Shown here one piece after another: positions 5,757-23,143 of a stretch of DNA of 64,000 nucleotides. A program made the translations under genes and the position numbers. The notes beneath the pieces are model-generated. The model was not told the origin of the DNA. It ran no database searches and saw only the letters and a program-made list of their open reading frames with translations. Source of the stretch: Polycyclovorans algicola TG408 (GTDB lineage: Bacteria; Pseudomonadota; Gammaproteobacteria; Nevskiales; Nevskiaceae); NCBI RefSeq assembly GCF_000711245.1, contig NZ_JOMH01000001.1, positions 490,830 to 554,829 on the forward strand. Direction: 5' to 3'. Within the stretch, counting starts at the first letter, position 1. Each line of letters starts with the position of its first letter.

Positions 5757-5760
<4 letters not shown>
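5293..5760 (+). CDS. PIN-domain ribonuclease toxin (VapC family)
   Basis: 155 residues. The N-terminal FLDTNIVIYSVD places the first metal-binding Asp at residue 10. Glu51 (TQVIQEFLN), an Asp near 108 (SFYDSLIVAAAL) and an acidic pair near 127 (LYSEDLQHG) complete the expected PIN active-site quartet. VapC toxins cut tRNA or rRNA and are held inactive by the co-encoded antitoxin. The ATG lies inside the 3' end of the antitoxin gene. The TGA overlaps the ATG of hrpA (ATGA at 5757-5760), so toxin and RNA helicase may be translationally coupled. All four catalytic positions appear intact, so the toxin is likely active. Confidence 0.88.
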
Positions 5761-9851
<4,091 letters not shown>

Positions 9852-9949: not shown

Positions 9950-10819
9950 ATGAAGCTTTCCGTACTGGTCACCACCTACAACGCGCTGCGATGGCTGGAG
10001 AACGTCGTCTGGGGGTATGCCGTGCAAACCCACCGCGATTTCGAGCTGATCATCGCCGACGATGGCTCGGGTCCCGAGACCGCAGAACGCATCCGTGCAC
10101 TGCGCGTTGAGACCGGGTTGGACATCGTGCACCTCTGGCAGCCTGACGAGGGCTTCCAGAAATGCCGCGTCCTCAACAAGGCGATTCTGGCCGCGCGCCA
10201 TGACTACCTCGTGTTTTCAGACGGCGACTGCATTCCGCGTGCCGACTTTCTCGCGGTGCACGCGGCGCGCGCCCAGCGCGGTTACTTCCTGTCGGGCAGC
10301 TATTACAAATTGCCCATGACCACCAGCGAGGCGATCACCGTGGACGACATCCGCACCCAGCGCTGCTTCGACATTGGCTGGCTGCGCGCCCATGGTCTGC
10401 CCGCCGGCCGCAAGAATCTCAAGGTGATCGCCGGTCCGCGCCTCGCCCGCTTCCTCAATGCCACGACGCCGACCCGCTGCAACCTCAAGGGCGCCAACGC
10501 CTCGGCGTGGCGTGACGACGTGTTGCGGGTCAACGGCTTTGACGAACGCATGCAGTGGGGCGGACTCGACCGCGAGTTTGGCGTGCGGCTGCTCAATGCC
10601 GGGGTCAGGTCGCGGCACGTGCGCTTTGATGCCATCTGCCTGCACCTTGACCATCCGCGCGGTTACGCCAACCCCGAACGCGTGGCCTTCAACAAGGCGC
10701 TGCGGCAGTCACACGCCCGCGAGGGCACGGTCGAAACCGGGCACGGTATCCGCCAGTTGCTGGCTTCAGGTTTCACACCTGACCAGGCGCGGGTGCCGGA
10801 CACGGCGGGCGCGGCATGA
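9950..10819 (+). CDS. GT-A fold glycosyltransferase, family 2 (type A, copy 1)
   Basis: 289 residues beginning MKLSVLVTTYNALRWLENVV, the nucleotide-sugar binding start of GT2 enzymes. IIADDGS follows, and the metal-binding DxD lies in FSDGDCIPR (about residue 90). A second domain has KGANASAWRDDVLRVNGFDE, like the galactosyltransferase C-terminal domain (Glyco_transf_7C). It is closely similar along its whole length to the gene at 14624, so the two are paralogs. Its TGA overlaps the start of the FkbM-type methyltransferase (ATGA). Location inside a cluster of transferases suggests a surface glycan such as lipopolysaccharide core. Donor and acceptor sugars are unknown. Confidence 0.85.
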   Translation: MKLSVLVTTYNALRWLENVVWGYAVQTHRDFELIIADDGSGPETAERIRALRVETGLDIVHLWQPDEGFQKCRVLNKAILAARHDYLVFSDGDCIPRADFLAVHAARAQRGYFLSGSYYKLPMTTSEAITVDDIRTQRCFDIGWLRAHGLPAGRKNLKVIAGPRLARFLNATTPTRCNLKGANASAWRDDVLRVNGFDERMQWGGLDREFGVRLLNAGVRSRHVRFDAICLHLDHPRGYANPERVAFNKALRQSHAREGTVETGHGIRQLLASGFTPDQARVPDTAGAA

Positions 10820-11676
10820 GCACGACCGCCGAGCGTGACCCCGGCAAGACCCAAGCCTGGGGTGCCCACGCCCCGACCGGCTTGGCCGGCTGGGTCATCC
10901 GTATCTGCCACGCGCTGCCCGGCACCTCGCGCATCTGGTACCGCCTGACGCGGCTGTTGCGCGGGCCGATCAAGCGGGCGCCGGTGCGACCCTTCGACGT
11001 CAACGCGCTGGGCATGGAGTTGCGGCTGCTCAACCGCGGCAATTTCTGCGAGATGACCGCGCTGTATGCCCCGCAGTTTTACGACGTGCCGGAGCTCGAC
11101 TGGCTCGCCGCGCAACTCGCCGACGGCGGCACCTTTGTCGACATCGGCGGCAACATTGGGCTTTACAGCCTGGCGATGGCACACCGGCTGGGGTCGCGCA
11201 TCAGCATCCACACCGTCGAGCCCGACGCCGAGCTTTCAGCGCGAATGCGCTTCAACGCCGAGCACAACGGCCTCAGCATCAACCTGGCACCGGTGGCGCT
11301 GAGTGATCACGAGGGCATCGCGACGCTGAAGATCGACGCCCGACAGCGCGGCCAGAACAGTCTGCAGGACGGCACGGCGAACGGTCAGGCGGACACCCGG
11401 GAGGTCCCGGTCAACACGCTGCTGGCACTGTGCCAGTCACGCGACATCACCCGCATCAGGGCGATGAAGATTGACGTCGAGGGCCACGAGCCGCGCATCC
11501 TCGGGCACTTCTTCGACAATGCCCCGGAAACCCTATGGCCCGAGGCGCTGTTGATCGAGCACGTCCACGACGACAACCGGCTGATGCAGCGCCTGATCGA
11601 CGCGCTGGGCTATGTCGAGCAGGGCCGCACGTCGCGTAATTTGCTGCTCAGCCGCGCGTCGACCACAGGCGGCTGA
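10816..11676 (+). CDS. FkbM-family SAM-dependent methyltransferase
   Basis: 286 residues. After a basic, mostly helical N-terminus, the SAM-binding loop reads FVDIGGNIGLYSL (about residue 113), followed by the acidic end of strand 2 in HTVEPDAEL and, later, IKVDxEG-like KIDVEGHEPRIL. That order matches the FkbM methyltransferase domain, members of which O-methylate sugars in polyketides and surface polysaccharides. It is coupled to the upstream glycosyltransferase by a 4-bp overlap, so a methylated sugar on the product glycan is plausible. Its 3' end overlaps the convergent gene at 11648 by 29 bp. Confidence 0.82.
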   Translation: MSTTAERDPGKTQAWGAHAPTGLAGWVIRICHALPGTSRIWYRLTRLLRGPIKRAPVRPFDVNALGMELRLLNRGNFCEMTALYAPQFYDVPELDWLAAQLADGGTFVDIGGNIGLYSLAMAHRLGSRISIHTVEPDAELSARMRFNAEHNGLSINLAPVALSDHEGIATLKIDARQRGQNSLQDGTANGQADTREVPVNTLLALCQSRDITRIRAMKIDVEGHEPRILGHFFDNAPETLWPEALLIEHVHDDNRLMQRLIDALGYVEQGRTSRNLLLSRASTTGG

Positions 11677-12565
11677 GGCTGCGCTCCAGCTTGTCGAGGT
11701 TGCGCAGCAGCGACGCGTTCTGAAACGGGTGATAGCGCCACGGGGTGGTCAGCCGCGCCGCGTCTTCAAGCCGCAAAAAAGTCTCGGCGACGGGCAACTG
11801 CTGCGGGTCGCGCTGGCGGAAGGCCTCGGCGTGGGCCTGCGACATCATGCGCAACGGATGAAATCCGCAGCCCTGACGCCGCTCGGCATGCTGCATCGCC
11901 CGGGTCTTGCTACGGCCCCGATAGGCCGGCACCGACGGCAGCCACATGACGAACGGCGCAAACATGAAGCCCATGGGGCCGAACAGCCGCCTGGCCTGCG
12001 GCTCGTTGCCATGCTCGCGGGCGGTGAACTGCCAGCCCTGCGCCCTGAGCCGCGCCGTGTCGGCGATAAAAATATCTGAGTAGTGCCCACCAACGCTGAG
12101 CCGCTCGGCCTCGCGCAGGTAACAGCCGGTGGCGTCATCAAAGCGGGTGATCTGCCGGTCGCGGGCGGCATTGCAGCCCTTGAGAAACGCCGGGTGCAAA
12201 AACGCCGCGTTGGGCCGTTGTTCAAACCAGCGATTGATGGCTGCGGCGTCGGTCTCATCCAGTGGCCGCACCAACTGCATGTCGTCCTGCAAAAAGCACA
12301 CGCGTGGCGCGTCGGTACGGTCCAGCGCCGCCTGCATGTTGGCGCTGAGTCCGCCGTGCTTGGAGCCTTCGCCGCCTGCGCGGACCACCACTTCGTGACA
12401 CTCACCGACCCGCTTCAGAACGGCGACGGTTTCGGGGTCGTCACTGGCGTCGTCCATCACCGTCAGCGTCGCGCCCGGGGCGCAAGTCTCGATGGAGCGC
12501 ACACAATGGGCCAGAAAACGACCGCGGTTGAAAGAGAAAATGTAGAAGTGCAGCGGCGGGGTCAT
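11648..12565 (-). CDS. Putative glycosyltransferase, GT2-like (type B, copy 1)
   Basis: 305 residues from the ATG at 12565 (MTPPLHFYIFSFNRGRFL). An open frame runs further upstream to 12778 but its extra residues look non-coding, and the paralog at 17420 starts at the equivalent place. Motifs shared with that paralog are FSFNRGRFL, the VMDDASDD nucleotide-binding strand, CFLQDDMQLVRPL in the position of DxD, YSDIFI/YSDISI and SGCGFHP-like GCGFHPLRMM. It runs convergently into the FkbM gene, opposite to most of the island. A glycosyltransferase role is inferred from the GT-A-like first third; donor and acceptor are unknown. Confidence 0.72.
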   Translation of the reverse strand: MTPPLHFYIFSFNRGRFLAHCVRSIETCAPGATLTVMDDASDDPETVAVLKRVGECHEVVVRAGGEGSKHGGLSANMQAALDRTDAPRVCFLQDDMQLVRPLDETDAAAINRWFEQRPNAAFLHPAFLKGCNAARDRQITRFDDATGCYLREAERLSVGGHYSDIFIADTARLRAQGWQFTAREHGNEPQARRLFGPMGFMFAPFVMWLPSVPAYRGRSKTRAMQHAERRQGCGFHPLRMMSQAHAEAFRQRDPQQLPVAETFLRLEDAARLTTPWRYHPFQNASLLRNLDKLERSLSRLWSTRG

Positions 12566-12782
12566 GGGTTCCAAGGATCGGAGCGGCCGCCGCAGTTTAC
12601 GCAACGTCCGGCCCCGGCTTGCGCGCCGACTCGCGCGGCCGGACGGTCTCTCGCCATCGAACAAACCGCGCGTCGACGATCTGGGGCACCATGTGGCATC
12701 GCGCTTAGTCGCCGCGCCCGTATCGGCGTGCCTCCCGACCTGCCTCACGGAACACGCCGCGCCACAGAATCCGTCCACTCCC

Positions 12783-13679
12783 GTGACACTGACGCCGCCC
12801 AGGGTGGCCGACGGTGCGTGGCATGCCGTCTGCCGTCATTTTTTTCGGCTGGCGGCCAGCGGCATTGTGCCGGCGCGCTGGTTTTCGCCCGCGCCACCCA
12901 TGCAGCGTGACGCCGTCACCGGCCGCCTGACGATTGAAGTGGTCAGCCACTGCTGGCAGTACGCGCACCTGCTCAAGCACCAGCTCAGCTCACTGGTCCT
13001 GCATCCGCCGCAACAGGTCGATGTTCGCGTCACCGTGTTTCATGCCGTCGAAGACGCTGACACCGTGGCCCTGCTCGCCTACTTCGCGCGTCACGAGGTC
13101 CCCGGCGTGCGCTGGAACTGGCAGGTGTTGCCACCCGACCAACTGATGCGCCGGTGCATCGGTCGCAACCAGGCAGCGCTGGCCACGACGGCCAACTGGG
13201 TGTGGTTCACCGACTGTGATCTGGTCTTTGGCGAGGGTTGCCTCGACGCGCTGGCTGAAAATCTGCAGGGTCGCACCGACGCCTTGGTCTATCCGCAGGT
13301 GGAGCATTGCACTTCGTTGCTGGCGGACGACGACGCCTCGCTGGCCGGCTTTTCGCCTGAAGCCGATCTGGCCGGCACCGTGGTGGACTTCAAGGCACGC
13401 GCTGTGTCGCGGGCCACCGGCCCTCTGCAGATCGCCCATGGTGACGTGGCGCGGGCGGTCGGTTACTGCGACGCCATCGCGGCCTACAAACCGGGCGCCG
13501 ATCATTGGCAGAAATGCTACGAGGACCGCACCTTTCGCTGGTTGCTGGGCACCCGCGGCGTGCCGCTGGACATCCCCGGGGTCCAGCGCATCCGCCATGT
13601 GTCCAAGGGTCGGTATCGCGCCGGCGGCCGCATGGCGACGCTGCGCCAGCAAATCCGCAAGGCCAAGGACCGCGCCTAG
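12783..13679 (+). CDS. Putative GT-A glycosyltransferase (type C, copy 1)
   Basis: 298 residues from a GTG at 12783; an ATG at 12900 is an alternative. I prefer the upstream start because similarity to the neighbouring broken copy extends before 12900 (ARWFSPAP here, AAWWSGVAP there). Key features are VVSHCWQYAHLLKHQLSSLV, the metal-site candidate WVWFTDCDLVFGEGCLDAL, GPLQIAHGDVAR and a C-terminal HVSKGRYRAGGR basic tail. The TDCD motif after a predicted strand fits DxD of GT-A enzymes. It stands two bases before the degenerate tandem copy. No substrate can be assigned. Confidence 0.7.
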   Translation: MTLTPPRVADGAWHAVCRHFFRLAASGIVPARWFSPAPPMQRDAVTGRLTIEVVSHCWQYAHLLKHQLSSLVLHPPQQVDVRVTVFHAVEDADTVALLAYFARHEVPGVRWNWQVLPPDQLMRRCIGRNQAALATTANWVWFTDCDLVFGEGCLDALAENLQGRTDALVYPQVEHCTSLLADDDASLAGFSPEADLAGTVVDFKARAVSRATGPLQIAHGDVARAVGYCDAIAAYKPGADHWQKCYEDRTFRWLLGTRGVPLDIPGVQRIRHVSKGRYRAGGRMATLRQQIRKAKDRA

Positions 13680-13681
13680 CA

Positions 13682-14590
13682 ATGCACACCGGGGGTGGCG
13701 CCGCGCCGATGGGCCGCGTCCGTGATGCCCTTGCACGACGGCTGACCGGGCTCTTGGCGTCCACCCCGGTTCCGGCCGCATGGTGGAGCGGCGTCGCGCC
13801 GAGGCCGGCACCGCTGTCCACCGGCCGACGGCTGACGCTCTAAATCGTCAGCCATTGCTGGCAGTACGCGCCGTTGCTGCGTCATCAGCTGGCCTCGCTG
13901 GTGCGCAACCCGCCCACGGCACTCGACGTTCGCGTCAGGGTGTTCTTCAGCCATGACGATCCAGCGACCGAGAACCTGCTTGCGGCATTCGCCGCGCACC
14001 GGCCACCCGGCATTGAATGGCATTGGCACGCCCTGCCCACGCCGCAGTTGATGCGGCGGACGATTGGCCGCAACCTCGCCGCGCGGAGGAGCCCCGCCGA
14101 CTGGCTGTGGTTCACCGATTGCGATGTCCTGTTCGGCGCGGGCTGTCTGGACGCGCTGGCTGATCGGCTGCGTGGTCAGTCGGCTGTGCTGGTGCATCCG
14201 GGTATCGAGTGGACCACCGACCTGTTGCGCGATTCGGCGATCCAGCGGGCGTCGGTCGATGCGCCGTTGGACTGTGAGCCCAACCTCACCTTCACACCCC
14301 ACGCCGTCACCCGCGCCACGGGGCCCCTGCAGATCGTCCGCGGCGATGTTGTGCGCAGGGTCGGTTACTGCGCGGCAACCCCCGCGTTTCTGACCCCCGC
14401 GACGCACTGGTGCAAAACCCGGGAAGACCGCGTGTTCCGCTGGCTGCTCGGCACTCAGGGGCAAGGGCTCGCGATCCCCAGGGTGCAGCGTATCCGCCAC
14501 CTCAGCAAAGGCCGTTATGGTCCGACCGCACGGCTGACCGCGCTTCGACAGTCCGTGCGCCGCGCAAAGGACGACTGGTTGCGTCGATAA
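13682..14590 (+). pseudogene. Tandem copy of type C glycosyltransferase, interrupted by a stop codon
   Basis: The frame from the ATG at 13682 (or 13709, MGRVRDALARR) aligns with the preceding gene through STGRRLTL, then meets TAA at 13841-13843. The same frame continues at once with IVSHCWQYAPLLRHQLASLV and runs intact to TAA at 14588-14590. The intact copy has LTIEVVSHCW here, so GAA (Glu) has apparently become TAA. The rest retains WLWFTDCDVLFGAGCLDAL, GPLQIVRGDVVR and HLSKGRYGPTAR. A start at the in-frame TTG 13874 would give a protein lacking the first strand. It is most simply a recent pseudogene; sequencing error or readthrough remain possible. Confidence 0.75.
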
Positions 14591-14623
14591 TTGCCGGCTC
14601 CCTGCGGAACCCTTCGGAGCGCC

Positions 14624-15475
14624 ATGAAGCTTTCCGTCATCCTCTCGACCTTTAACGCGCCCCACTGGCTGACAAAATCATTGCTGGGGTACGCGCAGCA
14701 GCAGTACCGCGACTTTGAGGTGGTGATTGCCGACGACGGCTCGACCGAAGAAACCCGTGCCTTGATCGCGCGAATGCGCGACGAAACCGGGCTGACCTTG
14801 CGCCATGTCTGGCAGCGCGACGACGGCTTTCGCAAATGCCGCATCCTCAACAAGGCGGTGCTGCAGGCCCAAGGCGACTACCTGCTGTTCAGCGACGGCG
14901 ATTGCATTCCGCGCCGTGACTTTGTTGCCGTGCACGCGGCCCGGGCGGCGCCGGGGCACTGGGTCGCGGGCAGTTATTACAAGCTGCCGATGGTCACCAG
15001 CCAGGCCATCACTGCGCAGGACATCGCCAGCGGCCGCTGCTTCGACCTGCGCTGGCTCAGGGCCCATGGCCTGCCGTCCAGCCACAAGACGGTGAAGCTC
15101 ACGGCCACGCCCGGTGTGGCGCGTTGGCTCAATCAGCTCACACCGGCGCGCTGCGACTTCAAGGGCGCCAACGGCGCGGCATGGAAGGCCGACGTGTTGC
15201 GCGTAAACGGCTTTGACGAGCGCATGGGCTACGGCAGCGAAGACAGTGAGTTCGGCACCCGCCTGCTGAACGCCGGGATTCGTGCCCGCAGCGTGCGCTA
15301 CGACGCGGTCTGCCTGCACCTTGATCACCCACGCGGCTACGTCGACCAAGCCGCCTACGCTCGCAACCGGGCGCTGCGCAAGCACAACCAACGCCAGCGA
15401 GTCAGTCGCACCGACTTCGGCATTGCCGAACTGCAGCGAGACGGTTACCCGCGTGCCGCCGCCATCGCCAACTGA
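14624..15475 (+). CDS. GT-A fold glycosyltransferase, family 2 (type A, copy 2)
   Basis: 283 residues from the ATG at 14624 (MKLSVILSTFNAPHWLTKSL), which matches the N-terminus of the paralog at 9950; the frame is open further upstream but without support. It shows VIADDGSTEETRALI, the DxD in FSDGDCIPRRDF (about residue 91), SYYKLPMVTS, KGANGAAWKADVLRVNGFDE and VCLHLDHPRGY, all shared with copy 1. As in that copy, a GT2 domain is followed by a galactosyltransferase-type C-terminal part. An IS630 element begins 32 bp after the stop. The two copies probably add related sugars to one surface glycan. Confidence 0.85.
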   Translation: MKLSVILSTFNAPHWLTKSLLGYAQQQYRDFEVVIADDGSTEETRALIARMRDETGLTLRHVWQRDDGFRKCRILNKAVLQAQGDYLLFSDGDCIPRRDFVAVHAARAAPGHWVAGSYYKLPMVTSQAITAQDIASGRCFDLRWLRAHGLPSSHKTVKLTATPGVARWLNQLTPARCDFKGANGAAWKADVLRVNGFDERMGYGSEDSEFGTRLLNAGIRARSVRYDAVCLHLDHPRGYVDQAAYARNRALRKHNQRQRVSRTDFGIAELQRDGYPRAAAIAN

Positions 15476-15504
15476 CGCGCAGCCTTCCAATGCTTGAGGT
15501 GCGA

Positions 15505-16593
15505 CTAGTGTCCCGAGTCAGAAATCCGCAGACAAAACCGTTTGACGGAATCGAGGATTTGGTCTGCGGTCTTGGTCCAGACAAACGGTCTGGGATTTTG
15601 GTTGTAGGTTGAGAGGTAATCGCGGATGGCTTGCTCCAGTTCGCGGGTGCTGCGATGAGTGCCACGCCGAATCTGCTTGCGTGTGATCTCGGCAAACCAG
15701 CGTTCGACCTGATTGATCCACGATGCAGAGGTCGGGGTGAAATGCGGGTGGAATCGTGGATGTCGTGCAAACCAGCGCTTTACCGCAGGGGTTTTGTGGG
15801 TTCTGTAGTTGTCCATCACGACATGGACTTCGGCATCGTCGGGCACGCTTTGGTCAAGCGTTGCCAGGAACTTCAGGAATTCGGCGGCACGATGGCGTCG
15901 GTGCAATTGCCCGATCACCTTGCCGGTCGCCACATCCAGCGCGGCGAACAACGTGGTGGTGCCGTGGCGCATGTAGTCGTGCGTGCGCCGCTCCGGCAGG
16001 CCGGGCGTCATCGGCAGAATCGGCTGCGTGCGATCCAGCGCCTGAATCTGACTCTTCTCGTCGACGCAGAGCACGACGGCTTTCTCGGGTGGCGCCAGGT
16101 ACAGCCCAACAATATCCCGCACCTTGTCAACAAACAGGGCGTCGGTGGAAAGCTTGAACGTCTCTTGACGATGCGGCTGCAAGCCAAACGCCCGCCAGAT
16201 GCGCGACACCGACGACTGCGACAGCTTCATGTGGTCGGCCAAGGCGCGCGTGCTCCAGTGCGTTGCGTCCACCGGCTTGGACTGCAGCGTCTTGGCGATG
16301 ACGGCTTCCACCAGGTCATCCCCGATGCGCCGGGGCGCCCCCGGTCGCGGATCGTCCAAAAGCCCATCCAGACGGCGCTCCACGAACCGCCGCCGCCACT
16401 TGCCAACCATCTGCTTCGAGACGTGCAACCGTGCCGCCGCCTCGATGTTCTGCGCCCCCTGCGCGCAGGCGAGCACGATACGTGCGCGCATCGCCAGCGC
16501 CTGGCTGGTCTTGTGCCGGCGCGTCCATTCGACCAGCCGATTGTTCTCTTCCGCCGTGAGCTTCAGTTCCGGCAATGGCCGTCCACGTCCCAT
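15505..16593 (-). CDS. IS630-family DDE transposase
   Basis: 362 residues. The N-terminal third is a helix-turn-helix domain pair ([33 protein letters not shown]). The catalytic DDE core has the first Asp in [12 protein letters not shown], the second in [12 protein letters not shown] and the Glu in [15 protein letters not shown], spaced as in IS630/Tc1-mariner enzymes. The frame runs through the left terminal repeat and its TAG stop is formed by the flanking TA plus one host base (15505-15507), so the stop codon is supplied by the target site. No frameshift is seen, so the enzyme should be functional. Confidence 0.93.
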
Positions 16594-16671
16594 GACAATC
16601 CCCTCGATATCTCGATGATACCGAGACAGACGGAGTCGTCATTGGTTCATATTATTTATGACTCACGACAC
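15508..16671 (-). mobile_element. IS630-family insertion sequence
   Basis: About 1164 bp bounded by terminal inverted repeats: 15508-15525 (GTGTCCCGAGTCAGAAAT) and the complement of 16654-16671 (GTGTCGTGAGTCATAAAT), 15 of 18 positions identical. Each end is flanked by TA (15506-15507, 16672-16673), the IS630 target duplication. Removing the element and one TA restores CTAG, the target word known for IS630. It carries one complete transposase gene and looks intact. Confidence 0.9.
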
Positions 16672-17423
16672 TAGCGCAGTGCATAGATCATCAATCGCAG
16701 ACCCACCCGCCCGTCGCGCCACCCGCCGCGTCGCAGATACGACTTGATCACCGCGCCCAGCGGGCTGAAGGTCCAAGCCTGAACGCCGTGACGGATCGCC
16801 GCCCAACGCGGCGACTGCCCTTTTCGCTGGCAGCGATCAAGCAAGCCCAGCGCGGCCAGGTCGGTGTAACGGGCAAGCTTCTCGTCCACCTCGGCCTGGG
16901 TCTCAAAGGTGAGGTGCACGAGACGGCCCGCCAGCAGCCGCCGCGGGCCGTCCACCAACAAGCCCTCGTGCACGCGTTTGTCGGGCGCCCAGTGACAACG
17001 GCGCCGGTCATAAAGCCGCGGGACGCGATCCGGGCTGACGATGGGGTACACCACGCGCACCGGCTGGCCGTAAGCCTGCCAGTGGCGTTGCACGTCATAA
17101 GCCGCCTGATCAAGTCCCGCTGTCCTGACCGCCCTGATGGCCGCGACTAACACGTCATCCGGGCGTTTGTCGCAGTCACAAAAGAAAATGTAGTCGTGGC
17201 TGCAAGCCTGCTCGGCGACGCCGCGCTGGGTCCGGAAATCGCTGAAAGGATGCGTCACGAAGCGGGCGCCGGCCGACGCCGCAATCGCTTGCGTCGCATC
17301 TGCGCTGCCGCTGTCGAGCACCACAACCTCGTCCGCAAACCGGTTCAGCTGGGCAAGGATGGATTGCAGATAGCGCTCTGAATTGAAGGTCAGCACATAA
17401 GCCGACAAGCCGGGCCGGTTCAC
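16671..17423 (-). CDS. Family 2 glycosyltransferase, WaaE/KdtX-like
   Basis: 250 residues from a GTG at 17423, which overlaps the TGA of the upstream gene as GTGA; a longer frame upstream is not supported. The start VNRPGLSAYVLTFNSERYL, the strand VVVLDSGSADATQ, the DxD-like FFCDCDKRPDD and the later KRVHEGLLVDGPRR resemble beta-1,4-glucosyltransferases of the WaaE/KdtX group that act on lipopolysaccharide inner core. Its TAG stop lies on the boundary of the IS630 element; the codon is TA from the target duplication plus the element's first base, so the protein length is unchanged. It is in an operon with the type B gene upstream. Confidence 0.8.
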   Translation of the reverse strand: MNRPGLSAYVLTFNSERYLQSILAQLNRFADEVVVLDSGSADATQAIAASAGARFVTHPFSDFRTQRGVAEQACSHDYIFFCDCDKRPDDVLVAAIRAVRTAGLDQAAYDVQRHWQAYGQPVRVVYPIVSPDRVPRLYDRRRCHWAPDKRVHEGLLVDGPRRLLAGRLVHLTFETQAEVDEKLARYTDLAALGLLDRCQRKGQSPRWAAIRHGVQAWTFSPLGAVIKSYLRRGGWRDGRVGLRLMIYALR

Positions 17424-18361
17424 GGTGCTGGCCCCTGACGGACGGGCGTGATCGCCGCCAGCCCTCGACGAAGGCGCATCTCGATACTGTTCAGCCATTT
17501 CAGATCGCGATGACCCTGCAACCCGTTGAATCGCCAAAGCGCGGTCGGGTCGCGGCCTGCGACCCACAGGAAATCTTCAACGCAAGGAAAGATGCGAGGG
17601 TCGCGCGCGCGCATTGCCGCCACGGCCTCACGGGTCATCGGTTCGATGGGGTGAAAGCCGCAGCCGCTGCGCTTCTCGCCCAAGGTCAACGCGAGCGTTT
17701 TGTGCTTGCCGCGAAAGGCTGGCACCCACGGCAACATCATCGCAAACGGCGCGTGCAGGATGCCCATGCGCATAAAGTGCGCGCGCGCCTGTCGTTCGTT
17801 GTCGTGTTCAGCGTTCTTGAACTGCCAACCGGCAGCGTGCAGCCGCTGCGGCAGGGTGATCGAAATATCGGAGTAGTAAACCCCGGCCGTTTGCGAGCTC
17901 AGCCTGGGCAGGTAAACCCCGGTGACGGGATCGAACTGCAGGGCATCGGGCGGCTGCGCCTTCTTTCTGCGGTGGACAAACGCCGGGCTCAAAAATGCCG
18001 CTTTGGGCGAGTGGGCAAAGTAGCGATCAATCGCTGAGACATCGTCGGCTTCGAGTGGCCGGACCAGCTGGGCATCGTCCTGCAGGAAGCACAGCGGCAC
18101 GTCGGGTTGTGCAATATCGAGCGCTGACTGCATGTTGGCATACAAACCGCCGTGCTTGGCTGCTCCCGTCCTGGCCGCAACGGTCACGCGGTGGCGTCGC
18201 GAAACATCGGCGATCACCTGCAGGGTGTCGGCATCGTCACTGCCATCATCGACGATGTGCACCGGACAGCCGGGCGCGAACTGCTCAATGCTCTCAATGC
18301 AGTGCTGCAGGAAGCGGCCCCGATTGAAAGAGAAAACGGCGAACTGGAGTTCTTGCGACAT
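17420..18361 (-). CDS. Putative glycosyltransferase, GT2-like (type B, copy 2)
   Basis: 313 residues starting MSQELQFAVFSFNRGRFLQ. It is similar along its length to the gene at 11648: FSFNRGRFL, VDDGSDDADTL, CFLQDDAQLVRPLE, VYYSDISITLPQRL, HAPFAMMLPWVPAFRGK and GCGFHPIEPM. The N-terminal part behaves like a GT-A nucleotide-sugar domain, with QDD near residue 100 as candidate metal ligand. It is first in a two-gene unit with the WaaE-like gene (GTGA overlap). The shared and strictly spaced motifs between the B copies suggest both are under selection. Substrate unknown. Confidence 0.72.
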   Translation of the reverse strand: MSQELQFAVFSFNRGRFLQHCIESIEQFAPGCPVHIVDDGSDDADTLQVIADVSRRHRVTVAARTGAAKHGGLYANMQSALDIAQPDVPLCFLQDDAQLVRPLEADDVSAIDRYFAHSPKAAFLSPAFVHRRKKAQPPDALQFDPVTGVYLPRLSSQTAGVYYSDISITLPQRLHAAGWQFKNAEHDNERQARAHFMRMGILHAPFAMMLPWVPAFRGKHKTLALTLGEKRSGCGFHPIEPMTREAVAAMRARDPRIFPCVEDFLWVAGRDPTALWRFNGLQGHRDLKWLNSIEMRLRRGLAAITPVRQGPAP

Positions 18362-18499: not shown

Positions 18500-20095
18500 A
18501 TGCAACGCCGAGCCCTGTTGCGTGCCGCCGCCCTCGCCGGCGCCAGCCTGCCATTCCCCGCCGCGCTACTCAGCGTCAATGCCAATGCCGCCGACCCGAA
18601 GCGTCTGGGCGATGCCGAGCGCTTCGACTATGCGACGCTCAAAGGCAAAGCTCGCGAACTGTCGGCGCAGCCGTATCAATCCCATGAGGGCGAATTGCCA
18701 AAGGCGGTCTCGGCGCTGGACTGGGACCAATACCAGTCGATTGGCTTCGATGCCGACCACGCGCTGTGGGGCGACGACAAGCTGCGCTTCAAGGCGCAGT
18801 TTTTTCACCTGGGCCTGTTCTTCAAACGACCGGTGACGCTGCACGAAGTGGTGGATGGGCAGGCGCGCGCGCTGGCCTATGACCCGGCCCTGTTCGACTA
18901 CGGCGACAGTGGCCTGATCGGCCGGCGCCTGCCGCGCGACCTGGGGTTTGCCGGCTTTCGGCTCAACATTGATACCGACCCGACGCGAGACGTGGCGGCA
19001 TTTCTCGGGGCCAGCTATTTCCGCGCGGTGGGCGGCGACTGGCAATACGGTCTTTCGGCGCGCGGGCTGGCCATCGACACCGCCTTGCCGCGACCGGAAG
19101 AATTCCCCGACTTTGTCGCCTACTGGCTGGAAAAGCCGGATCCGCAGTCCGATTCGCTGGTCGTTTACGGTCTGCTCGACTCGCCGAGCACCACCGGCGC
19201 CTACCGCTTTGTGCTCACGCCGGGGCAGAACTTCGTGATGGACATTGACGCCGCGCTGTACCCGCGTAAACCCATCGAGCGCCTCGGCATCGCGCCGCTG
19301 ACCAGCATGTATCAGACCGGCGAAAACGACCGCCGCATGGCCAACGACTGGCGCCCCGAGATTCACGACTCCGACGGCCTGGCCCTGCACAGCGGCAGCG
19401 GCGAATGGGTCTGGCGGCCGCTAAGCAATCCCCGACAGTTGCGCTTCAACATCTTTCAGGACGACAACCCGCGCGGCTTCGGCCTGCTGCAGCGTGACCG
19501 CGACTTCAACCACTATCAGGATGACGGTGTGTTCTACGAGCGTCGGCCCAGCCTGTGGGTGCAGCCCAAGGCCGGCTGGGGCAAGGGCGCGGTGCAGTTG
19601 GTGGAGATTCCCACCGTCGATGAAACCTTCGACAACATCGTGGCCTTCTGGAACCCCGAGCAGCCGGTCACGCCGGGCGAGGAACATCTGTTCGGCTACC
19701 GATTGCATTGGGGGGCCACGCCGCCAGAGGTGCCGCCGCTGGCCACCTGCGTCGCCACTCGCACCGGCATCGGCGGCGTGGTCGGCAAAACGCGGCAGTA
19801 TTTCTCGTGGCGATTTGCCGTGGATTTTGCCGGCGGCAACCTGTCGCTGATCAACCCCGAGCACACCGACATTGAAGCGCGGGTCACCACGTCACGCGGC
19901 CGGGTCGAGACTGTTTCGGCACGCCCGCTGCACGCCATTGACGGCTATCGCGTGATGTTCGACCTGGTGCCGCCCGACGGGTCCGAAGACCCCATCGACC
20001 TGCGCCTGCAGCTCAGCGCCAACGGCCAGACCCTGACCGAAACCTGGCTTTACCAGTACAACCCGCCACCGGCCGGTGAACGCGCGGCATCATAG
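18500..20095 (+). CDS. opgD: Glucan biosynthesis protein D (OpgD/MdoD)
   Basis: 531 residues. The start MQRRALLRAAALAGASLPF is a twin-arginine signal (RRALLR, then a hydrophobic stretch and ANA-A cleavage near residue 31), as in E. coli OpgD rather than the Sec-exported OpgG. The mature part has the MdoG-family beta-sandwich: RFDYATLKGKARELSAQPY, YQSIGFDADHALW, FHLGLFFKRPV, LGASYFRAVGG, QYGLSARGLAIDT and FQDDNPRGFGLLQRDRDFNHYQD. These proteins shape the backbone of osmoregulated periplasmic glucans. No opgH glucosyltransferase is adjacent. It sits between the glycosyltransferase island and another putative transferase. Confidence 0.92.
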   Translation: MQRRALLRAAALAGASLPFPAALLSVNANAADPKRLGDAERFDYATLKGKARELSAQPYQSHEGELPKAVSALDWDQYQSIGFDADHALWGDDKLRFKAQFFHLGLFFKRPVTLHEVVDGQARALAYDPALFDYGDSGLIGRRLPRDLGFAGFRLNIDTDPTRDVAAFLGASYFRAVGGDWQYGLSARGLAIDTALPRPEEFPDFVAYWLEKPDPQSDSLVVYGLLDSPSTTGAYRFVLTPGQNFVMDIDAALYPRKPIERLGIAPLTSMYQTGENDRRMANDWRPEIHDSDGLALHSGSGEWVWRPLSNPRQLRFNIFQDDNPRGFGLLQRDRDFNHYQDDGVFYERRPSLWVQPKAGWGKGAVQLVEIPTVDETFDNIVAFWNPEQPVTPGEEHLFGYRLHWGATPPEVPPLATCVATRTGIGGVVGKTRQYFSWRFAVDFAGGNLSLINPEHTDIEARVTTSRGRVETVSARPLHAIDGYRVMFDLVPPDGSEDPIDLRLQLSANGQTLTETWLYQYNPPPAGERAAS

Positions 20096-20100
20096 TCGTC

Positions 20101-21054
20101 ATGCGTGCGCCAACCCTCTCACTGCTGACCGTCACCTGGGCCGGTGATGCACGACACTTCGATTTGCTGCGCGCGTCGCTGCAGCGCTCGTCGCTGGTGG
20201 CCGTGCCGCACCACGTGGTGGTGCACAGCGAGGACCTGCCGACCTTTGCCGGACATGTGCCCGCCGTCGAACTGCAGCCCACCGCCGACGTGCTGCCGGG
20301 CGGTCTTGAAGCGGCGCGCGTTAACGCGCTGGGCTGGCAACACCGCCTGGGCCGCCACGGCACCAAGTGGCTGAGCAGCCTGACGCGCAGCCTCGGCGCG
20401 CCTGTGTGGCCACGGTATCTGGGCTGGCACATGCAGCAGATCAGCAAGCTGGCCAGCGTTGCCGCCAGCCCGGCCGACACCGTGCTGGTGCTGGACTCCG
20501 ACGTCATCGTCACCGCACAGGCGCGGGTCGATGACTACCTGCACCCCACGCGTCCGGTCTGCATCGAACAGTGGCAACCCGCCGAGAAGGCACGCGGCAA
20601 GGTCCGCAAGTGGAACCGCGAGGCACACCGCCTGCTGGGCCTGCCGTTTGACGCCAAAGCGCCGGTCGACCTGTATTTCGACACGCCCTTTCCGATGCAC
20701 CCGCCCAGCGTGCGCGCACTCATGCGCTGGCTTGAGAATCGCTATCAGTGTCCATGGTGGCAGGCCATTCTTGCCCAGCCGCCGCGCCGCTGGTCCGAGT
20801 TCGCCACCTACCGGCTGTTCCTGCGCCAGCACCCAGCCGCTGGCGGTGTGGAATGGCGATCGCCCGCCTTGTCGCGCTACGTCCACGACGCCACCGATCT
20901 CCCTGCGCTCATCGCTCATCTGCAGGCGCTGATGGCGGAGCCGGACTGCCACTACATCACCCTGCACTCGCAGAGCAGCGGGCGTGGTTTGTGGGATGCG
21001 GACCAGGTGATTCCGAGTGTGCGGGCGCTTGTCGACCCCGTCGCAGGACGCTGA
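20101..21054 (+). CDS. Putative glycosyltransferase (DUF6492-like)
   Basis: 317 residues, starting five bases after opgD, so likely cotranscribed. The order TLSLLTVTWAGDARHFDLLR, then WPRYLGWHMQQISKLA and VLVLDSDVIVT resembles the poorly characterised DUF6492 family, in which a GT-A-like domain with DSD as metal site follows a HMQQ-type loop. A C-terminal part has DLYFDTPFPMHPPSVRALM, WSEFATYRLFL and HCHYITLHSQS-like CHYITLHSQSSG. Its placement after opgD suggests decoration of a periplasmic or surface glycan. The family name is from memory of the motif pattern; a function is not established. Confidence 0.6.
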   Translation: MRAPTLSLLTVTWAGDARHFDLLRASLQRSSLVAVPHHVVVHSEDLPTFAGHVPAVELQPTADVLPGGLEAARVNALGWQHRLGRHGTKWLSSLTRSLGAPVWPRYLGWHMQQISKLASVAASPADTVLVLDSDVIVTAQARVDDYLHPTRPVCIEQWQPAEKARGKVRKWNREAHRLLGLPFDAKAPVDLYFDTPFPMHPPSVRALMRWLENRYQCPWWQAILAQPPRRWSEFATYRLFLRQHPAAGGVEWRSPALSRYVHDATDLPALIAHLQALMAEPDCHYITLHSQSSGRGLWDADQVIPSVRALVDPVAGR

Positions 21055-21233: not shown

Positions 21234-21704
21234 ATGCAGCCAAAACAAAAAATCATGGTCGGCCACGGTGCGGTGGTGATGTTCATCGGCATGCTCGCGG
21301 GCTTTGGCCTGCTGTCGAGCCTGATCGGCGGGCTGGAGTTGATTCCCGGCAGCATCATCGAGTTCACCATTCCCGGCGACGCCGGCAGTTGGGCGCGGGC
21401 GCACATTGGCGGCATGTTCAATGGCGTGTTCATCATGCTGGTGGCCTTGCTGATCATGGCGATGAAGATCGCCGACAAGCCCGCAGGGCAGCTGCACTGG
21501 ATGCTGATTGGCACGGGCTGCGCCAACACCATCTTTTACTGGGCCGCGCTGATGGCGCCCAACCGCGCGCTGACGGTGGCCGACAATGTGCACGGCGAGT
21601 CCAACATCTGGGCGATCATCGGCCTGCTGCCGGCGCTGGTGTTTGCCATCGTGTCGCTGGTGGCGGTCTACATCCTCATTCGTCAGGCCTTCGCCAAGGC
21701 CTGA
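21234..21704 (+). CDS. Styrene-oxide isomerase-like membrane protein (StyC family)
   Basis: 156 residues from the ATG at 21234, preceded by GGGAGAG. Four hydrophobic helices are visible (about 10-35, 63-82, 91-112, 130-152). Motifs shared with StyC are KIMVGHGAVVMFIGMLAGFG, GGLELIPGSIIEF, WARAHIGGMFNG and ANTIFYWAALMAPNRALT. StyC is a haem-dependent integral membrane enzyme that isomerises aryl epoxides to aldehydes; the His in MVGHG and the RAH motif correspond to conserved positions. No StyA/StyB monooxygenase lies nearby, so the true substrate may be another epoxide. The gene follows a 179-bp gap after the preceding transferase. Confidence 0.78.
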   Translation: MQPKQKIMVGHGAVVMFIGMLAGFGLLSSLIGGLELIPGSIIEFTIPGDAGSWARAHIGGMFNGVFIMLVALLIMAMKIADKPAGQLHWMLIGTGCANTIFYWAALMAPNRALTVADNVHGESNIWAIIGLLPALVFAIVSLVAVYILIRQAFAKA

Positions 21705-21715
21705 TGCAACACGCG

Positions 21716-23143
21716 TCAGGCTGGCGCCTTGCTGGCCTGACGCGCCTTTGCCTTGACTGCGGGGACCACCGGGGCGCCGCCCGCTTCAAGCTCGTCCAGT
21801 GACTCGCCGAGATAGTCGAGCAAGCGCTGCAGGCTCGGCAGCGTTTTACGGCAGCCAATCAGCCCGAAGTCGATGAAGTCGTGGCGACTGACCAGGGTGA
21901 TGTTGAGCGCAATGTTGTTGACCAGCAGCGACACCGGGTACACGCCGTCGAGCTTGCAGCCCTGCCAATAGGTCTCGGTGCGCGGGCCGGGCACGTGAGA
22001 AATCACCACATTGACGATGGTTTTGGTCCGGCTGAAGCCGGTGAGCAGATTGAACACGCCAGGCGCAAACATCAGGCCTTCGTAGGCCATGAGCTGCGAC
22101 GGGTTCAGCGCCCTGAGCACTTGCTTGTTGTAGTCCATGCAGGCTTTCACGGCGAGCAAACGTGCTTCAGGACACGCAATGTGAGTGCCGAGATGCGTCA
22201 GCGCAAAGGCCACTTCGTTGCCCGAATCACCATCGTCGCGCCGCGTCGAAACCGGCACGGCGGCCACCAGCGGGGCGTCGGGCAGGGCATTCAACTCGCC
22301 CAGATAGCGCCGCAGCGCGCCGCCGCACATGGCCAGCACGACGTCGTTGACGGTGGCGTCGAAGCGCCGTGCGATCGCCTTGATGCGCGGCGTCTCGTAC
22401 GACTGGGCGGCAAAGCGCCGCGAGCCCGAAATATTGTTGTTAAGAATGGAGCGCGGCGCTTGCAGGCTGCCGATGCAGTCTTCGCGCCCGGCGCGCTGGT
22501 CACGGCGCACCTGGCGAAACTGCTGGAACACCGGCGTCACGCCGTCGAGCCCCTGCTGGGCCAGGGCGCGCAAGGCATTCACCCCGCGCAGCGACGGCGT
22601 TGGCACTGGCAAGCGGCGTTCGCGGGTGCGGCGGGTGCGCACTTCCCACGGGGCGGGCATGGTGATGGAGGTTTCGGCATCGGGGGCCATCGACTTCATC
22701 AGCAGGCGAATGCCCGCCACGCCATCGACCAGTGCGTGGTGAATTTTTGAGTACAGCGCAATGCGCCCGTCGTCCAGGCCTTCAATCAGATAGATGCGCC
22801 ACAGTGGATAAGCGCGATCCAGATGCGCCGCGTGCACCCGCGAGACCATGGCCAGCAGTTCACGAACACGCCCCGGCTTCGGCAGCGCCAGGTGCACGAA
22901 ATGCTGCGCAAGGTCGAAGTCGCCCGACTCATCCCAAAACTTGAACCCCGCCCGGCTGACCAGCCGCCGGTTGAACGGCGCTGCGGCCTGCGCCGATTGC
23001 CGCAGGCGCTCGGCCAATTGCAGCGCAAAGTCGGGCGGCGCGTCCGGCGGCGGGGTGAACAGGCAAAGCGCGCCCACATGCAGCGGTTGCTGGCGCTGCT
23101 CCATGAGCAAAAAAATGTTGTCGATGGCTGACAAAGGTTTCAT
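21716..23143 (-). CDS. Wax ester synthase / diacylglycerol acyltransferase (WS/DGAT)
   Basis: 475 residues from the ATG at 23143, preceded by GGAGAG five bases upstream; an open frame extends to 23176 but without a ribosome site. The active-site motif HHALVDG (YSKIHHALVDGVAGI, about residue 130) is intact. PLWRIYLIEGL, NDVVLAMCGGALRRYL and NVVISHVPGPRTETYW are standard for this family. The enzyme joins fatty acyl-CoA to an alcohol or diacylglycerol, forming storage wax esters or triacylglycerol at the inner membrane. It is convergent with the StyC-like gene, 11 bp between stops. Bacteria often hold several such genes; chain and alcohol preference cannot be told here. Confidence 0.92.
   Translation of the reverse strand: MKPLSAIDNIFLLMEQRQQPLHVGALCLFTPPPDAPPDFALQLAERLRQSAQAAAPFNRRLVSRAGFKFWDESGDFDLAQHFVHLALPKPGRVRELLAMVSRVHAAHLDRAYPLWRIYLIEGLDDGRIALYSKIHHALVDGVAGIRLLMKSMAPDAETSITMPAPWEVRTRRTRERRLPVPTPSLRGVNALRALAQQGLDGVTPVFQQFRQVRRDQRAGREDCIGSLQAPRSILNNNISGSRRFAAQSYETPRIKAIARRFDATVNDVVLAMCGGALRRYLGELNALPDAPLVAAVPVSTRRDDGDSGNEVAFALTHLGTHIACPEARLLAVKACMDYNKQVLRALNPSQLMAYEGLMFAPGVFNLLTGFSRTKTIVNVVISHVPGPRTETYWQGCKLDGVYPVSLLVNNIALNITLVSRHDFIDFGLIGCRKTLPSLQRLLDYLGESLDELEAGGAPVVPAVKAKARQASKAPA

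Follow-up and report, generated by a model that had tools for sequence, protein, structure and literature searches.

How does a bacterial island come to carry three different glycosyltransferase genes twice each, and what do these genes build? The question is raised by positions 9950-18361 of a 64,000-nucleotide stretch of Polycyclovorans algicola TG408 (contig NZ_JOMH01000001.1; C1:490830-554829 of this organism's own genome, G000); this whole stretch is what we call the window, and the other G and L handles denote the genomes and loci compared with it. The original prediction held that a block of genes had been duplicated and then rearranged, possibly to build a repeating surface glycan with O-methylation by an FkbM enzyme. 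We conclude, with a probability of about two in three, that the island is a glycosyltransferase locus for the core of lipopolysaccharide (LPS) or lipooligosaccharide (LOS) situated away from waaA and kdkA, and that its gene pairs come mostly from two alternative cassettes that lie side by side. The pairs A/A', B/B' and C/C' are real, and their order and strands are as predicted (open reading frame positions and BLASTP within the window). The genes of the island, together with gene D further along, are as follows, with bit scores from domain searches (GT2, glycosyltransferase family 2; GT-A, glycosyltransferase fold A; IS, insertion sequence).

9950..10819, plus strand: A, GT2 glycosyltransferase of 289 amino acids (aa), cassette 1 (PF00535, 62.9 bits; 88% to A of G002)
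10816..11676, plus strand: M, FkbM-family methyltransferase, cassette 1 (TIGR01444, 79.2 bits against a cut-off of 37.7)
11648..12565, minus strand: B, GT-A glycosyltransferase by predicted fold, cassette 1 (77% to B of G002)
12783..13679, plus strand: C, GT-A glycosyltransferase by predicted fold with a DxD motif, start codon uncertain (family found near kdkA)
13682..14590, plus strand: C', interrupted paralogue of C (TAA at 13841-13843)
14624..15475, plus strand: A', GT2 glycosyltransferase, cassette 2 (PF00535, 64.8 bits; 59-62% to A' of G002 and G070)
15505..16674, minus strand: IS630 element of 1170 bp (NF033545; CTAG at both ends; terminal repeats GTGTCnnGAGTCA)
16671..17423, minus strand: W, GT2 (WaaE-like) glycosyltransferase of 250 aa, cassette 2 (GT2 Pfam domain; tail cut at the IS edge)
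17420..18361, minus strand: B', GT-A glycosyltransferase, cassette 2 (PF00535, 24.5 bits against a cut-off of 23.3; groups with B' of G002 and G070)
20101..21054, plus strand: D, DUF6492 protein and probable glycosyltransferase (PF20102, 54.7 bits; 75% to D of G002)

The three pairs are old, because their members share just 62-67% identity at the DNA level. As proteins, A and A' are 59.6% identical over 275 aa (E 6e-125), C and C' 53.7% over 283 aa (E 1e-98), and B and B' 47.7% over 302 aa (E 8e-89). The FkbM-family assignment of M, which the original prediction had made, was confirmed by the TIGR01444 match.

The evidence for two cassettes comes from G064 and G070, which belong to one genus in another family (f4) of the same taxonomic order as the window's genome. 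Their DNA is 90.7% identical over 7,037 bp running through waaA, kdkA, C and most of D (99% protein identity for C and 74% for D), and 96.6% identical over 6,202 bp from an epimerase gene onward, but between these flanks (L053 10197-13798) only 241 bp match, at 69%. The slot between the flanks contains B-A-M in G064 versus W-A'-B'-B'' in G070, where it spans two contig ends whose pieces of A' overlap with 98.5% identity over 133 aa. By these alignments, G064 and G070 hold alternative cassettes in one slot.

The window and G002, a second member of its genus, contain both kinds of cassette. Along the DNA, cassette 1 of the window is collinear with that of G002 at 79%, and C and D align at 78% and 77%, versus just 65-68% for A' and W and no match for B' at the threshold used. 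The proteins of cassette 2 in G002 are instead more similar to those of G070 than to those of the window (W, 69% vs 60%; A', 78% vs 59%; B', 70% vs 43%), which, going by identity, places them closer to a genome of another family than to one of their own genus. W itself gives strong matches (E below 1e-100) only in G000, G002 and G070 among 100 genomes, with ten more genomes at E 2e-40 to 1e-26. M adjoins A in G002, in G064 and, in another family, in G340 (L181). The arrangement within cassette 2 differs as well: in G070 and G002 the genes A' and W are convergent and overlap at their ends, and in the window the IS630 element separates them, although their orientation toward each other is kept; the A'-W pair is flipped relative to B' when compared with G002 and G070, and B'' is absent.

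A comparison of the locus across relatives, a check that accompanied the original prediction, thus revealed alternative cassettes in G064 and G070, and it also revealed a near-empty site in G001, a member of the same genus. The island lies between a gene for an HrpA-type helicase and a WS/DGAT gene, and the inserted stretch extends beyond 18361 through an OpgD/MdoG gene, D and a small membrane protein, up to the WS/DGAT gene ending at 21716. The remaining features of this neighborhood are the following.

5757..9851, plus strand: HrpA-type helicase, left flank of the island (Pfam; 332 bp from the WS/DGAT gene in G001)
18500..20095, plus strand: OpgD/MdoG-type periplasmic glucan gene, within the inserted stretch (PF04349, 674.8 bits)
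21234..21704, plus strand: small membrane protein, start uncertain (no Pfam match; DNA alignment to G002 begins at 21242)
21716..23140, minus strand: WS/DGAT gene, right flank (PF03007; adjoins HrpA in G001)

The distance between hrpA and the WS/DGAT gene is 11.9 kb in the window. The site is near-empty in one of the three genus members, because in G001 the two genes are 332 bp apart; G001 gave no match to A, B or C at thresholds of E 1e-25, 1e-10 and 1e-10. In G002 the same two genes enclose A, M, B, a two-component system, C, W, A', B', B'' and D. The two-component system of G002, a histidine kinase and a response regulator, lies between B and C (L047 14210-16172); in the window B and C are 217 bp apart, which leaves no space for these genes. 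The near-empty gap of G001 (L102 9633-9966) contains repeated short motifs (GTCATTGCGAG..., GCGATGACAGAC...).

What the island makes is indicated by the company that its gene families keep in other genomes. WaaA transfers Kdo (3-deoxy-D-manno-oct-2-ulosonic acid) to lipid A, and KdkA phosphorylates Kdo. C was found in 6 of 100 relatives and in 9 of 369 genomes of the class, with the own genome counted in both, and distances to kdkA were measured in the loci that were fetched. Outside family f1, kdkA lies 0.2-8.6 kb from C in all 16 loci (L031-L035, L040, L053, L055 and L178-L185), and the 16 C genes are distinct, being at most 86% identical except for L053 and L055 (99%). In loci outside f1, a distance to kdkA of at most 8.6 kb was also measured for all six D loci, for 11 of 14 A loci (the exceptions being L140-L142) and for 10 of 20 B loci. 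D-type paralogues are located between kdkA and waaA in both G000 and G001. Since the families are linked to kdkA and waaA in relatives, A, B, C and D are most simply read as extending the LPS core, and from this gene neighborhood the glycan is most likely LPS core and not a repeating polymer. A surface glycan, as originally proposed, is very likely, and an FkbM methyltransferase that may modify it is present; the repeating structure was not supported, as the families lie near the gene for the Kdo kinase in relatives and no polymerase, flippase, ABC exporter or initiating transferase was recognised by Pfam among 14 window proteins (10 from the island and four neighbors, both flanks included), the protein of 21234-21704 being without any match.

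The same results bear on the possibility that the island makes the repeat unit of an exopolysaccharide or capsule, and not an LPS core, which we regard as quite improbable. The N-terminal parts of A and A' match the EpsD exopolysaccharide model, at 77 and 88 bits and thus far under its cut-off of 370. The profile of the A pair (residues 3-244) matches residues 94-340 of the Escherichia coli K4 chondroitin polymerase (PDB 2z86/2z87) with an E value of 3e-23, a likeness that speaks for a polymer, but A is a single GT2 domain and lacks the second active domain of that polymerase. An MdoG/OpgD gene within the inserted stretch and the position of the island away from waaA in its own genome would also fit a polymer, and against these stand the adjacency of the same families to kdkA and waaA in relatives and the lack of recognised polymer machinery among the 14 proteins.

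The GT-A folds predicted for B and C also speak for the core reading. The cut-off of PF00535 is passed by A, A', W and B', and B, C and the open part of C' score just below it. Despite these scores, the models of B and C are predicted to have GT-A-like folds. The AlphaFold model of B has a pLDDT (predicted local distance difference test score) of 91, and Foldseek matches it to TarP and SpsA at a TM (template modeling) score of about 0.5; the predicted model of C has a pLDDT of 81 and is matched to SpsA and K4CP, also at about 0.5. The sequence identity of the two models to SpsA, TarP and the K4 chondroitin polymerase is 12-15%, and when the C-family profile was compared with solved structures by sequence, the best E value was 0.48. 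W matched a general GT2 model, with other family models below cut-off and no WaaE model among the matches, although whether the libraries contain one for WaaE was unchecked. A literature search found no paper on DUF6492.

To place the paired genes among their homologues, we built two sets of trees. Homologues shorter than 180 aa and duplicates were dropped, including the 145-aa piece of A' from G070, and A of G002 was restored by hand to the first trees. For the second set, long or distant sequences were removed (7 of the 24 A rows and 12 of the 33 B rows), 2 and 1 new rows, respectively, were added, and Ferrimonas was omitted from the C tree (1 of 15); the eight p-values of this set, from the approximately unbiased (AU) test, are uncorrected. 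In the first trees, A groups with A of G002 (100/100) and B with B of G002 (100/99). B' groups with B' of G002 and G070 (94/83 in the first tree and 80/91 in the second), and C' groups with C and C of G002 (94/93 in the first tree and 77/84 in the second, in its best tree). The named groups agree between the two sets, with lower support in the second set for B' and C'. Topologies in which the window and G002 group without G070 are rejected for both A' (p 1e-4) and B' (p 4e-6).

These trees bear directly on the block-duplication account, in which an ancestral A-B-C block was copied within this lineage, after which inversion and IS630 rearranged the genes. A and A', and likewise B and B', are not each other's closest homologues, as topologies that pair them directly are rejected (AU p 3e-4 for A and 7e-5 for B), whereas C' stays with C. 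Such a rejection is to be expected almost by default, given the close orthologues of A and B in G002, and the fairer tests are those of wider groupings, given below. The account has three families in two copies each to its credit, as well as the grouping of C' with C, the presence of IS630 and the inversion seen relative to G002 and G070, but M and W occur only once in the island, the pairs have diverged to unequal depths (60, 54 and 48% protein identity) and the two sets of genes occur as alternatives in G064 and G070. On balance we consider the account unlikely. What remains of the original prediction is a rearranged glycosyltransferase island; the duplication is not supported in the form in which it was put forward, since G064 and G070 hold the halves as alternative cassettes and neither M nor W has a partner in the island. 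Two cassettes side by side are a better-supported description of the present anatomy than a block duplication.

There are nevertheless results that pull the other way from a core locus built of two cassettes. For A, a duplication in the common ancestor of the window and G002, which would give A' an origin within the genus, is not rejected (p 0.34), and for B the corresponding grouping of B, B of G002 and B' is rejected marginally (p 0.03, one of the eight p-values). An older duplication that covers the copies of G002 and G070 is likewise not rejected, with p 0.15 for A and p 0.08 for B. In the A tree A' has no settled position; by identity it is nearest to two gammaproteobacterial loci (L031 and L033, 63-64%). 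The B tree leans toward B' lying outside the B genes of the genus. B' is 48% identical to B of G002 and of the window vs 43-44% to B' of G002 and G070, so that by identity its nearest relative is B. The two G070 contigs are presumed to join. M does not mark cassette 1 strictly, since in G442 (L178) an A'-type gene has a weak relative of M (33%) next to it, and G003 and G014 carry A, B and C without M or W; because of these two cases, more than two arrangements exist. As to the product, distant relatives of B are not near kdkA (0 of 10 loci), although one of them, L038, is beside waaA, and inside f1 none of the six C loci (the window, L047 and L049-L052) has kdkA in the stretch examined. In the genome of the window, kdkA (954.8 kb) and waaA (967.6 kb) lie some 450 kb away from the island. 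The cassettes themselves may have been born from an old duplication, with a later transfer to G070, and C and C' may be a true tandem duplicate.

Two genes of the island are broken, and this raises the question of whether cassette 2 is still in use. C' has an in-frame TAA at codon 54 (13841-13843), and the open frame that remains starts with a TTG at 13874. At the position of this stop all 13 aligned members of the C family, C of the window included, have glutamate. C' retains 68 of 72 family-invariant residues, the stop itself being one of the four losses; in a leave-one-out comparison each of the 13 members retains 94-100% of the positions that are invariant in the other 12, and C' with 94% is at the low end of this range. 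The largely intact motifs suggest a recent break, and the long branch of C' (1.36 in the first tree and 1.22 in the second) suggests an earlier loosening of constraint. The stop may also be a sequencing error. The orthologue of A in G002 (L047 and L048) has an in-frame TAG at codon 23, which is either a real break or an assembly error.

The second break is in W, whose last codons are severed at the edge of the IS630 element and whose former tail survives across the element. W takes its stop codon, TAG, from the CTAG with which the IS ends on the right (16671), and it is left with 250 aa vs 274-275 aa in G070 and G002, or about 24 aa shorter. Past the left edge of the IS, the minus strand reads SHLKHWKAAR, which is identical at 10 of 10 positions to the tail of W in G002. 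Because both copies of this IS in the genome carry CTAG at both ends, a stop of W that arose before the insertion looks the same as one that arose after it. The family assignment that had been made for the element holds, as its transposase scores 277.9 bits with NF033545 (cut-off, 100) and its inverted ends are flanked by CTAG. With these ends and its short terminal repeats it resembles other IS630 elements and shows nothing unusual. The second copy, which is identical, lies 2.3 Mb away (G000 2790249-2791414). IS630 was also considered as the agent of the A'-W inversion but gained no support: of its 12 matches in the genome, none flanks A'-W except the element itself. A literature search found no paper linking IS630 to core oligosaccharide.

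From such breaks one could argue that the locus is decaying and that cassette 2 is a remnant with only cassette 1 functional, an idea that is compatible with any origin of the cassettes. The TAA and long branch of C', the missing end of W and the stop in A of G002 are what it would predict, but A' and B' have uninterrupted reading frames, and the GT2 domain is still present in W. The GC content at third codon positions is 0.82 for A', 0.78 for W and 0.74 for B', the lowest, vs 0.80-0.89 in the other genes checked, and we weigh this on the side of maintained genes. We regard such decay as rather doubtful.

The reading that we prefer, a core locus with two alternative cassettes side by side, would work as follows. 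The island would have been inserted between hrpA and the WS/DGAT gene, with cassette 1 (A, M and B) common to the window and G002, and with cassette 2 of the window (W, A' and B') being probably a diverged form of a cassette that is also present in G002 and, in another family, in G070. C and D would be constant core genes, and C' an older extra copy of C that is now interrupted. Relative to G002 and G070, the window has a flipped A'-W pair, lacks B'' and carries the IS630 in the end of W. A, B, C and D would each add one sugar to Kdo, to phospho-Kdo or to the growing core, presumably from nucleotide sugars at the cytoplasmic face, and M would methylate a core sugar. Carrying both cassettes may then lengthen or diversify the core.

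Core loci that exchange glycosyltransferases are a kind of locus already known, and the novelty here lies in the gene families and in the presence of both cassettes next to each other. The wa regions of Aeromonas contain waaC and waaF, which encode heptosyltransferases. Aeromonas core genes are spread over separate chromosomal regions 1-3, one of them with kdkA, types of region 1 differ by the exchange of a single glycosyltransferase (wahZ vs wahE) within one architecture and region 2 has inserted gene sets in some species (PMC5372535). The split core regions and the exchange of glycosyltransferases in a fixed architecture are thus shared (PMC5372535). In the window, however, the two cassettes coexist in one site, and the A-D families appear to differ from those of Aeromonas. 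The LOS core of Acinetobacter baumannii is described as assembled on Kdo by one transferase after another, with an outer core that varies, which is the manner of assembly that we propose here (PMC10936431). The locus and genes appear to be different ones in A. baumannii.

Some features of the inserted stretch and its flank stand apart from the cassettes. The OpgD/MdoG gene (18500-20095) has close counterparts in G009 (73%), G005 (66%) and G013 (60%), and G002, G003 and G014 have more distant MdoG genes elsewhere (43-46%). Because its close and distant homologues are divided in this way, the history of this gene may be separate from that of the cassettes, and it may have been gained or retained differently. 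Within the HrpA gene, positions 6443-6622 and 6746-6859 do not align with G002 and make the gene a net 156 and 111 bp longer, in frame. These inserts are GC-rich inverted repeats with folding energies of -125 and -73 kcal/mol; by their sequence they look like palindromic repeat elements within a conserved coding gene, and no further copy was found in the 173 kb of own-genome sequence that was searched.

Close to the core genes themselves, a protein family that matches no Pfam model (L097 11490-12329, with related frames in L098 and L101) lies beside kdkA and waaA in G000 and G001 and is perhaps another core glycosyltransferase. Heptosyltransferase-type genes were searched in ten genomes with the model Glyco_transf_9 (PF01075). 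A core firmly without heptose was dropped as a candidate, since a match is present in G000, another in G009 and three in each of G068 and G082; the domain is absent from G001, G002, G003, G014, G064 and G070. It is present in one of the six C-bearing genomes vs three of the four without a C match, ten genomes being too few to conclude from. The sole match in G000 (C1:2354620-2355312, L105) is beside an HldE-like kinase/cytidylyltransferase, and G001 and G002 have none.

It is tentatively possible that A-D mark an undescribed heptose-poor core route in several gammaproteobacterial lineages, in which C would be the first transferase to act on the phospho-Kdo made by WaaA and KdkA, and in which families would exchange whole A/B cassettes and so switch core types. 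For the island itself, cassette exchange at a core locus would replace the block-duplication account, and the poorly annotated C (no Pfam model over cut-off), B and DUF6492 proteins gain a likely role in the LPS core, next to the Kdo phosphate. If this is true, these genes would make it easier to predict in which environmental gammaproteobacteria the core is unusual and between which lineages core types are exchanged.

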